DNA of 43,067 nt, taken from assembly GCA_025351325.1 (NCBI GenBank), contig JANXWE010000187.1:1-43067 (forward strand), read 5' to 3'. Of the stretch, positions 217 through 3,383 are shown piece after piece. Each line of letters starts with the position of its first letter. The stretch's first letter is position 1. The notes beneath the pieces are model-generated. The model was not told the DNA's origin. It ran no database searches and worked only from the letters and a program-made list of their open reading frames with translations. The translations under genes and the position numbers were made by a program. Source of the stretch: Fimbriiglobus sp. Lineage in GTDB: Bacteria; Planctomycetota; Planctomycetia; Gemmatales; Gemmataceae.

Positions 217-1715
217 CGCCGTCTTTGACCATGTACGCAGGCACGTTGATTCCGGTCGAGTAAACGAATTGCTCAACGATGTTGCCAAAGCTATCGAGTT
301 TTGCCACCGGCCATAGTTGCCCGTTGCAAATCAACCCCTCGACCAGCACGCCGTCGACCTTCTTCCCGACCCGCCGGGTTTTGTCCGTCGATCAGATACT
401 CGATGACCTTGCCATCGGGCAGTTCCACGCGCGTGAGGTTCTTGAATGCGTCGTACTGGTAACGAGTGATTTGCCCTGTTGCCGAATCGGTGACTTGTTT
501 CAGCGAACCGAGTTCGTCGTAGGTGTATGCCTTCGTGCCGTAGGAAAGCAGTTGATCTTGAGCGTTGTAGACACCAGTAACTGTTCCATTCAGTGTGATC
601 AAACTCAGCCGGTTGCCGTTCGGATCGTAGCCGTATTGCTGCGTAACGACACCGTTTTCTGTTACCGAAATGAGTTGACCGTTCAAGTCGTAGCCGTAGT
701 CGATGGTATTGCCCGTGCCATTGACCGAATCGATCTTGCGAGTGATTCGTCCGAGCGCATCCCGCGTGTACTCGAAGGCCATCCGAGGCTGAGCGTTCCA
801 AGTAGCCGAGTAACTCCGCACTTCGCCGAAGTTGTTGTAGTCGATGACTTCAGCGACACCGGCCGTGCTTGTGCCGAGATACGTCGAGTCAATTCGCCCG
901 AGATTATTACTTCGGTAAATCGTGAGATCGCCCGCTTGCATGAGCAACCCGTCAGCGTCATAAGTGAAATTCGCCAAACTTACGCCATTCACCCGTTCGC
1001 CGGTCACTCGGAAGTTGCTGTCGAAAGTGCGATCAATCCGGCCTGCGACTGCCCCCGTAGTCGTTTCCGACGTGACGAGGCTGCCATCCAAGCCGAACGA
1101 CACCGAGAACCCACCAGGGCTTGCAATCGAGGAGAGTTCGCCCGTCGTCGTGCTGTAGGTGTGTGCATACTCTCCCCACGGAGCCGTAATGCCGGTGAGC
1201 CGGCCACAGTCGCAGTAGGCGTAGGAGATAACCTGACCGCCCGGCAATGCCTCACTGACGAGTTGGTGCGCGAGGTTGTAGACGTAGCGTGTCGAATCAT
1301 CGGTGGCCCCGACCGGCGGGGGCGTCGCACTCAGCAACTGGTTCTTTGAGTCGTAATTGAAAGCGTGTTGCGGTTGGCCGGGCGGAGTCAGGCCGACCAG
1401 GTTGCCGCTAATGTCGTAGGCGAACAGGATGAAGGTGCCGTCGGGTTGGGTTTGCTTAACTACTCGGCGAGCAGCGTCGTATTCAAAGCGCGTCACACGG
1501 TTGAGGGGATCGGTGATCGAGTCGAGCCGCCCCTGGGCGTCGTAACCATTCGTGACGGTACGGGTGCCCTGAGTGATCGAGGCGATTCGACCGCGACCGT
1601 CGTAGGCGTAGAGCGTCGGTTCGATAGTGGGCACCGAGACGAGAATCGGACGGCCCAGGTCATTGAGGGTGGTCACGCTCGCCCGTCCAGCGGCACTGGT
1701 GGACGTGACCCCGAT
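214..1715 (-). pseudogene. RHS-repeat protein, truncated and frameshifted
   Basis: The minus strand encodes many RHS/YD repeats (for example YDAQGRLDSITDPLNRVTRF and YDPNGNRLSL), typical of large secreted RHS or wall-associated proteins. Neither end is intact. Upstream, the reading frame stays open to about 1715, where it meets a transposase fragment. Near 376-378 a run of three G on the plus strand appears to hold one base too many. The main frame leaves the expected LIDGQN-RRVGKKVDG path there and ends at 291. The correct continuation (VEGLICNGQLWPVAKLD through YMVKDGVLV) is found in another frame from 349 downwards and is cut off near 214. No C-terminal toxin domain remains. I infer a dead gene, though a single-base sequencing error could explain the frameshift alone. 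Confidence 0.75.
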
Positions 1716-1980: not shown

Positions 1981-2337
1981 ACGAACTTCAAGTTCAAGAG
2001 CGAGTTCAACCCGGCGGAATCCAAAAGGCTCGACATCCCGGCCCGCTGGACGGATGCTCTGCTCAAACACGAGAAACTGCATCTGGCCATCGGTGAATAT
2101 GTGATGAAGAAACAGCTGCTGAATGTCCCGGTCATGACGGCTGTGCAGACGGGCAGTACAGCGGCAGCTGCTGAAAAGGCGGCCATAACTCAACTGAAGA
2201 GCCTCGCAAACATCCAATTCGATGAGATAAAAAATGCAGTAGACTTGATTAATGAACTCTACGATCATGAAGACCAAACTGATCATGGAAAAAATCAGAT
2301 GTCTCAAGCCGACTGGGAAGCCAACTACAGGTGCTGA
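1978..2337 (+). pseudogene. DUF922-like Zn peptidase, 5'-truncated and 3'-interrupted
   Basis: The frame reads FKFKSEFNPAESK, then TDALLKHEKLHLAIGEY with an HEKLH (HExxH) site, then YDHEDQTDHGKNQMSQADWE. This order matches the DUF922 family of secreted predicted zinc proteases (usual HExGHFDI and YDxETxHGxNQ motifs). The start is lost at the junction with a transposase fragment near 1978. At the 3' end the frame enters a transposable unit at 2330 and stops two codons later. If that unit and one target copy are removed, the frame continues with KEENRRCT and stops at 3328-3330, a plausible native C-terminus. This supports recent insertion into an already damaged gene. Confidence 0.55.
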
Positions 2338-2353
2338 TGCAGTAATGCGTTGA
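2330..2353 (+). repeat. Left terminal inverted repeat of the cassette
   Basis: This 24-bp repeat pairs with 3273-3296 in inverted orientation with two mismatches. It abuts the left target copy. Its inner end supplies most of a candidate -35 box (TTGACG at 2350-2355). Confidence 0.8.
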
Positions 2354-2376
2354 CGATTCGTTTTACAAAGTATAAC
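2350..2376 (+). promoter_or_regulatory. Candidate promoter of the cassette gene
   Basis: TTGACG (2350-2355) and TATAAC (2371-2376) are separated by 15 bp, slightly short for a sigma70 promoter. The -35 lies in the left terminal repeat, so the cassette would carry its own promoter. The predicted start lies only a few bases upstream of the AGGTGG ribosome-binding site of the gene at 2394. Confidence 0.4.
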
Positions 2377-2393
2377 TCAAAAGGTGGCCAACC

Positions 2394-3242
2394 ATGTATC
2401 TCTTCAATATCATGACCACTAACGGTATTTCGTCGTTCTGCCAAACTGGCAAAGTCACGAGCCTGTACGCGATGCTCGAAGCATATTCCTACAACTACTT
2501 TTTGGCTGGCCATGCAATTGGCAGGGCAATCACGGAATTGGATTTGTCCAATTTGGATTGCGTCATAAACCCACAGGAAAACGTCCCATTGATGGGAATT
2601 GTTGCCGGGTTCAAATCGCAGTGCGAAAAACTAGATTTGAAATTTACGATTGAGGCCGTCAATCGTTTTCTGGTCTGTAAAGACGGCCCTGTGAAATGCA
2701 GCAGAGTCGTCGATGAACTCGGCGAGATTCGCCGCCGCGCTGCCGACGAACTCGGCAGCAGGCTGTTCCTATACCTCGACACCCCGAAAGCCACGCTTTT
2801 CAGCAAAGAGTACCCTCTTGGGGAAGAAATCGAAACGCGGTTTCCGACTACGTCCAACGACATTTCGGAGGCTGCGAAGTGCCTTGCACTCGGTCGGTAC
2901 ACCGGTGCCGTTTTCCACTTCTCAAGGGTTCTGGAATTCGTACTGAACGACTTCCACGAAAGACTTACTGGAAACCCGCCCGCCCCGAAAAATACATGGG
3001 GACTAACCGTCGCTTTGGCCAAAGTGTATGCTGGCCAGTTGCCGTCTTCTGCCAAGGTTGAAATCGACAAGAAGCGATCTGCATCTGCCGTGATAGATGC
3101 GTTTGATTCCATCAAAAGGGCATGGCGCGATCCGGCTGTACACGATCTCGGCAAGATGTATACCGAGGAACACGCAAAAAACTTAATGGATAGAACTAAA
3201 CAAGCCTGTACCTTAACTATCGCGTGGATGGACGCCGCATAG
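2394..3242 (+). CDS. HEPN-like protein, sole gene of the mobile cassette
   Basis: This 282-aa protein starts at ATG 2394 behind an AGGTGG ribosome-binding site. The N-terminal two thirds have no family I recognise. The C-terminal part is all-helical: an ISEAAKCLALGRYTGAVFHFSRVLE segment, then FDSIKRAWRDPAVHDL, then YTEEHAKNLMDRTKQ. The RDPAVH element fits the R-x4-6-H motif of HEPN proteins, many of which are RNases in toxin-antitoxin and abortive-infection systems. Helix-rich proteins with a W-R-x4-H then Y-T-E-E-A pattern are common uncharacterised HEPN relatives. No antitoxin gene sits beside it in the cassette. Base composition is visibly less GC-rich than the neighbours, suggesting transfer. 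Family membership is an inference; nuclease activity is not shown. Confidence 0.6.
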   Translation: MYLFNIMTTNGISSFCQTGKVTSLYAMLEAYSYNYFLAGHAIGRAITELDLSNLDCVINPQENVPLMGIVAGFKSQCEKLDLKFTIEAVNRFLVCKDGPVKCSRVVDELGEIRRRAADELGSRLFLYLDTPKATLFSKEYPLGEEIETRFPTTSNDISEAAKCLALGRYTGAVFHFSRVLEFVLNDFHERLTGNPPAPKNTWGLTVALAKVYAGQLPSSAKVEIDKKRSASAVIDAFDSIKRAWRDPAVHDLGKMYTEEHAKNLMDRTKQACTLTIAWMDAA

Positions 3243-3272
3243 CCATCGGCGGATTCCCACGAAAATCAGCGA

Positions 3273-3296
3273 TCAACGCATTGCTGCATCAGTACC
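3273..3296 (-). repeat. Right terminal inverted repeat of the cassette
   Basis: This is the inverted partner of 2330-2353, followed directly by the second CAACTACA target copy at 3297-3304. It lies 30 bp after the stop codon of the cassette gene. Confidence 0.8.
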
Positions 3297-3383
3297 CAAC
3301 TACAAAGAAGAAAATAGACGGTGTACTTAAGGAAAAGTTCAAGTGGGCGAAGTAGCCTTAAATTGCTGATTAACAAGTGCGAT

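Follow-up and report, generated by a model that had tools for sequence, protein, structure and literature searches.

A HEPN-family gene as the only cargo of a probable IS1-type insertion cassette in a planctomycete genome

The inserted unit and its surroundings

The window analysed here, a 43-kb stretch (43,067 nucleotides) of the genome of Fimbriiglobus sp., contains a unit of 967 bp at positions 2330-3296, or 2322-3304 if both copies of its target duplication are included, which is the extent already given in a preliminary description of this DNA. Its left terminal inverted repeat, GGTGCTGATGCAGTAATGCGTTGA (2330-2353, forward strand), and its right one (3273-3296, reverse strand) are complementary at 22 of 24 positions, and the 8-bp sequence CAACTACA is present as an exact repeat on both flanks (2322-2329 and 3297-3304). 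The only sizeable gene-like open reading frame between the ends (2394-3242, forward strand) is intact and encodes a HEPN-family protein of 282 amino acids, which is discussed below; there is no transposase inside. Thus, the 24-bp inverted ends, the exact duplication and the single non-transposase frame that had been proposed before were all found again. Next to the left repeat lies a subterminal motif, CGATTCGTTTTACAAAGTATAAC (2354-2376, forward strand), which differs from the right end, where the short motif TCGCTG (3267-3272, reverse strand) adjoins the inverted repeat. The left motif is possibly a transposase site or a promoter (TTGACG and TATAAC with a spacer of 15 bp); the promoter is our own reading, and a consensus promoter scan did not return it.

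Scanning the entire window for inverted ends that match at 17 or more of 22 positions and are accompanied by an exact 8-bp duplication returned one pair, that of the unit itself (20/22), while 40 dinucleotide shuffles of the window yielded a single pair in total, which just reached the threshold of 17/22. No further occurrence of the end motif was found within the window. Ends and duplication are far above chance expectation.

The unit interrupts a host gene (1981-2328, forward strand; 5' limit provisional) whose product is weakly DUF922-like (PF06037, E 0.031, below the cut-off). The 3' end of this gene is proposed at 3305-3330 (forward strand) on the basis of reading-frame continuity: if the unit and one copy of the duplication are removed, the frame continues into KEENRRCT and a stop codon at 3328-3330. 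The restored end of a DUF922-like gene, as suggested previously, therefore stands as far as the frame is concerned, but only a few codons are gained and the similarity to DUF922 remains below threshold. Among 40 related genomes no homolog of the interrupted protein was found and, with this protein as the query, no empty site for the insertion. The surroundings of the unit are degenerate, with RHS repeats and broken open reading frames, and an RHS-repeat (YD) gene lies directly upstream (291-1676, reverse strand). Since a related element of the same genome (C182, see below) likewise sits between YD-repeat-like frames, YD/RHS regions may tolerate insertions.

Mobile insertion cassettes and transporter ISs are already known, as is stated in passages of PMC3129680 that cite Siguier et al. 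(2009). With them the unit shares IS-type terminal inverted repeats, a target duplication, a passenger gene, the absence of a transposase (as in the cassettes) and a cognate IS of the same ends with a transposase elsewhere in the genome (C184, see below). It differs in its cargo, a stand-alone HEPN protein, which was not found described in the literature searched. We are close to certain that the unit is a mobile insertion cassette. A MITE-like reading was dropped, since the open reading frame is intact.

Sister elements and other IS1-type elements

The host genome (5.09 Mb, 382 contigs) contains three more elements with the ends and the subterminal motifs of the window unit, which we call A-type. 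Two of them have exact 8-bp duplications of different sequence: C182, which is 706 bp long and contains small open reading frames (AGACATTC), and C184, which is 2529 bp long (L006, 748-3276; AAAAACTT). The third, C15 (2176 bp), lies in the opposite orientation, has most of its transposase deleted and is without a duplication. The left subterminal motif is conserved in all four A-type elements, their left ends having a further conserved stretch, CGATTCGT..TAC.AAGTAT.AC, in common, and TCGCTG is identical at all four right ends. As each element has one of each of these separate motifs, left and right ends are distinguishable.

The only autonomous copy with the ends of the unit is C184, whose first 67 bases are about 81% similar and which encodes a transposase of 352 amino acids. 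This transposase reached 78.4 bits with the IS1 model NF033558, which is below the curated cut-off of 100, and 28.2 bits with the model of the IS1/IS1595 N-terminal zinc-binding domain (NF050000, cut-off 28). Because of the former score, we name the group IS1-type and not IS1. It resembles the IS1 family in its zinc ribbon and DDE transposase near the IS1 model, its GGT ends and its 8-bp duplication, whereas its transposase is a single-ORF protein of about 350 amino acids (with no more than 78 bits for that of C184) and its elements measure 2.5-3.5 kb, with several cargo genes and end sequences of their own. Judged from these sequences, the C184 transposase is the likely trans-acting mobiliser of the window unit. 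The preliminary description had suggested looking in the host genome for an IS that shares these ends, and had regarded a lack of any other copies or empty sites as evidence against its reading; C184, with its IS1-type transposase, is such an IS, and three further same-ended elements are present. C184 carries in addition a gene for a protein of 225 amino acids (L006, 1009-1686, reverse strand) that weakly resembles MltR-family proteins and Abi_2/DUF4145, has an RNTVAH motif and is possibly another HEPN-type cargo.

Further IS1-type elements of the host genome have other end sequences, either B-type (GGTAGTGGCCCATTAGTGTGTTGA; for example C85, with the duplication TATTACCG) or C-type (GGTACTGTCCTAGCTTTGCGTTGC; for example C90, with the duplication CAGATTCG). 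C218 (L101, 1561-2790) is a second transposase-free cassette, with B-type ends and the duplication GAAAATCG. Its cargo is a protein of 283 amino acids with the R-x4-H-like sequence RHLLVH, and at the right copy of its duplication a C-type IS1 end follows directly on the seventh base. The 225-aa protein of C184 (RNTVAH), the 283-aa protein of C218 (RHLLVH) and a 258-aa protein of C15 (RTALDH) were considered as further HEPN proteins and set aside: Pfam matches were sub-threshold or lacking, none of the three matched the profile of the window HEPN family, and a HEPN identity of these R-x4-H-like cargo proteins is tentative. Other cargo of the B- and C-type elements includes a SocA/Panacea protein as well as XRE and ImmA/IrrE proteins, and P63C proteins in related genomes; in the bacterial family of the host, IS1-type transposons with P63C, SocA/Panacea and XRE plus ImmA/IrrE were observed at L063, L065, L058, L056 and L102. 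Such cargo is reminiscent of toxin-antitoxin or phage-regulatory genes. Two B-type IS1 ends also form a 52-bp near-palindrome, a minimal MITE-like unit (L108, 3765-3816), and longer two-end units of this kind occur at L107 (89 bp) and L109 (358 bp).

A second planctomycete from another genus (G388, UBA4732) has an intact C-type element with the duplication GGAAGTTC that carries a homolog of the window HEPN protein (27% identical). Its transposase reached 100.2 bits with the IS1 model (cut-off 100). This element (L067, 3531-8614) is nested in an IS1595 element, whose transposase gene it interrupts, and each of the two has an exact 8-bp duplication.

The cargo protein and its family

Taken alone, the window protein gave no convincing match to Pfam (HEPN included), NCBIfam or PADLOC. 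Single-sequence searches with it revealed no relative in 294 planctomycete genomes, genome contigs, viral contigs or phages, and six distant matches among plasmids; the remaining relatives, from plasmid, viral and genome sources, were reached only via an alignment. A profile search of the 294 planctomycete genomes gave the window copy alone among the matches listed. In the 47-row alignment V173, H175, R178, E181, W202, R245 and H250 are invariant, and W-R-N-x3-H is found in nearly all homologs. R245 and H250 delimit the predicted catalytic motif R-D-P-A-V-H (R-x4-H; 3126-3143, forward strand), which has the form Rx4-6H with a polar residue after the arginine that is typical for HEPN proteins (PMC3710099). 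Among the 47 relatives, matches to HEPN-clan families of Pfam were obtained for PF05168 (12 of 47, best 9e-5), DUF4145 (8) and Ymh (6), and Csm6-HEPN was matched as well; Pfam HEPN, DUF4145, Ymh and Csm6-HEPN are members of the HEPN superfamily (PMC3710099). The profile matches thus belong to the relatives and not to the window protein itself.

A model of the window protein calculated from the alignment (mean pLDDT 88.5, pTM 0.77) has an all-helical HEPN fold in its C-terminal domain (about residues 147-282; 2832-3239, forward strand). The best compact structural matches of this domain are the NRD-HEPN of RnlA, with Z 10.3 and an rmsd of 3.4 over 134 residues, and the HEPN domain of sacsin (Z 9.9), followed by TT1696 (1ufb; 8.7) and 4nqf (8.6). 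Foldseek alone yielded no significant E-value. Since helical bundles easily yield such middling Z-scores, the fold match supports, yet does not prove, a HEPN protein. However, with motif, profile and fold taken jointly, we assign the window protein to the HEPN proteins with high confidence, and it is probably a catalytically active, predicted RNase. The preliminary description had called the gene HEPN-like and had named a structure prediction without a HEPN fold as evidence to the contrary; the invariant R-x4-H, the Pfam matches of the relatives and the HEPN-type domain of the model all bear out the original assignment. RnlA of the RnlA-RnlB system of E. coli has an R-x4-H active site. Its C-terminal HEPN fold is matched by our model, whereas RnlA has the antitoxin RnlB and additional N-terminal domains, and no partner is seen at the window unit.

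A census of the family comprised 55 loci from named genomes, with up- and downstream sequences of similar length. At 30 of these loci an IS1595 or IS1-type transposase gene is located at most 4 kb downstream of the HEPN gene, compared to two upstream, and in all but one of the 30 downstream cases (29/30) both genes are convergent. Inverted ends of at least 17/22 together with an exact 8-bp duplication were detected at 20 of the 55 loci, while shuffled loci gave 0.2 on average. The HEPN-bearing IS1595 elements have the end consensus GGCAATAATATACTTGACACACCA, and several transposase-less HEPN loci retain one end of this type; most of the elements consist of the HEPN gene and the transposase and nothing else. 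With the IS1595 model, the six transposases tested from IS1595 loci with a HEPN gene all reached 175-210 bits (cut-off 75), as did the outer transposase of the nested pair in G388. Transposon linkage is spread across the HEPN tree, in which the window protein forms a very long branch, and is not limited to one clade. There is a moderate correlation between HEPN and transposase distances (Mantel r 0.35, p 0.0006), in keeping with genes that are partly inherited together and partly exchanged, and close HEPN neighbours frequently have distant transposases. At L154 (4753-8849) the HEPN gene of an IS1595-type element is apparently shortened ahead of the motif, and other transposase ORFs are nested inside the element.

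The window unit and the HEPN-bearing IS1595 elements have a homologous HEPN passenger and an 8-bp duplication in common, but the ends of the unit differ from the consensus of the latter, which belong to another transposase family. The host genome gave no IS1595 match, and the window HEPN gene consequently rides on IS1-type ends; at planctomycete IS1595 loci, no HEPN gene of this family was found within the short stretches examined. The unit is very probably a cassette of the IS1-type group, with a HEPN protein from a family that is associated with transposons. Because many IS1595-family elements usually have a gene of this family as their only passenger, the lone HEPN cargo is not a unique case and no accident, and the earlier remark that no class of elements with such cargo came to mind has to be corrected: IS1595-family elements and one IS1-type element, that of G388, do so. 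As the same family travels on both kinds of transposons, the HEPN gene can be seen as a mobile module that swaps vehicles.

HEPN genes are no strangers to transposons. They ride on Tn7-like elements (PMC8649781), and the Tn3-family transposon TnSod9 carries a HEPN-MNT toxin-antitoxin pair (PMC7157771). The HEPN gene of TnSod9 is a transposon passenger like that of the window; however, its transposon is of the Tn3 family and also encodes its MNT antitoxin, whereas the window HEPN gene stands alone in an IS-sized unit with no MNT or other antitoxin gene adjacent. A stand-alone HEPN protein as passenger of IS1595 or IS1-type elements was not described in the literature searched, which lay outside ISfinder and Siguier et al. 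(2009), where the gene may be listed unrecognised as HEPN. The association seems to be undescribed.

Possible role of the HEPN cargo

In the reading that we favour, an IS1-type transposase encoded elsewhere in the genome, by C184 or by a related element, would recognise the 24-bp ends together with the subterminal motifs. It would move the 967-bp unit in trans and leave the 8-bp duplication behind. The sole payload, a stand-alone HEPN protein, would most likely be an RNase that is independent of metals and might cut RNA upon a trigger in the way of abortive-infection HEPN proteins or RnlA. It could benefit the element by keeping phages or rival elements away from its host or replicon. PADLOC matched the window HEPN protein to no defence system. 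We regard such a defence-like benefit as a serious prospect, albeit with slight scepticism.

The HEPN gene might instead belong to the biology of the transposon: together with the transposase gene it would make up a two-gene element, in which it regulates the mRNA of the transposase, the copy number or the entry into targets. Most IS1595 elements consist of HEPN and convergent transposase alone, antisense contact between convergent genes is possible, and the Mantel correlation of their distances points in this direction as well. However, the window cassette retains an intact HEPN gene without a transposase, the family occurs on two transposase families and the nearest neighbours among the HEPN proteins are often paired with distant transposases. 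Given the former two observations, we favour a payload over a regulator of transposition and consider the latter rather unlikely. A type II toxin, with MNT or another antitoxin as a partner that was lost or resides elsewhere, would leave the host addicted to the element. HEPN-MNT pairs are known cargo of Tn3-family transposons (PMC7157771), and the protein that gave the best compact structural match, RnlA, is the toxin of such a system. Yet neither the cassette nor most IS1595 elements contain a second gene, and beside 16 transposase-less homologs, inspected by eye, no conserved neighbour or antitoxin was seen. Such a pair is less likely for want of a conserved antitoxin-like neighbour, and we deem it improbable.

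The unrelated cargo of C182 and other sister elements would be expected if IS1-type ends had captured a neighbouring gene by accident, so that the HEPN protein were a passive hitchhiker. This is highly improbable in our view, as a homolog is IS1-type cargo in another genus (G388) and linkage of the family to IS1595 elements recurs in several phyla. That the unit is not mobile at all, its inverted repeat having arisen by chance within decayed RHS sequence, would be in keeping with its degenerate neighbourhood of RHS repeats and broken open reading frames; against the shuffles and the sister copies, which have the same ends and different exact 8-bp duplications elsewhere in the genome, its probability is negligible.

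Returning to the HEPN protein as payload, we tentatively propose that a HEPN gene and an IS1595 or IS1-type transposase constitute a widespread, unrecognised two-gene mobile module. In it, a stand-alone RNase would be the component under selection, serving the element by defence or maintenance much as TnpB does in IS200/IS605, and transposase-free cassettes would be its hitchhiking form.

Taken together, one stand-alone HEPN family is tied to small DDE transposons in at least five phyla. This suggests that such RNases spread as single genes and need neither plasmids nor large islands to do so, which would account for the patchy distribution of stand-alone HEPN proteins. It also raises the question of whether a single-gene RNase pays for its transposon by defence or regulates it, and offers a reading for the 'hypothetical' passenger genes of IS1595 elements.
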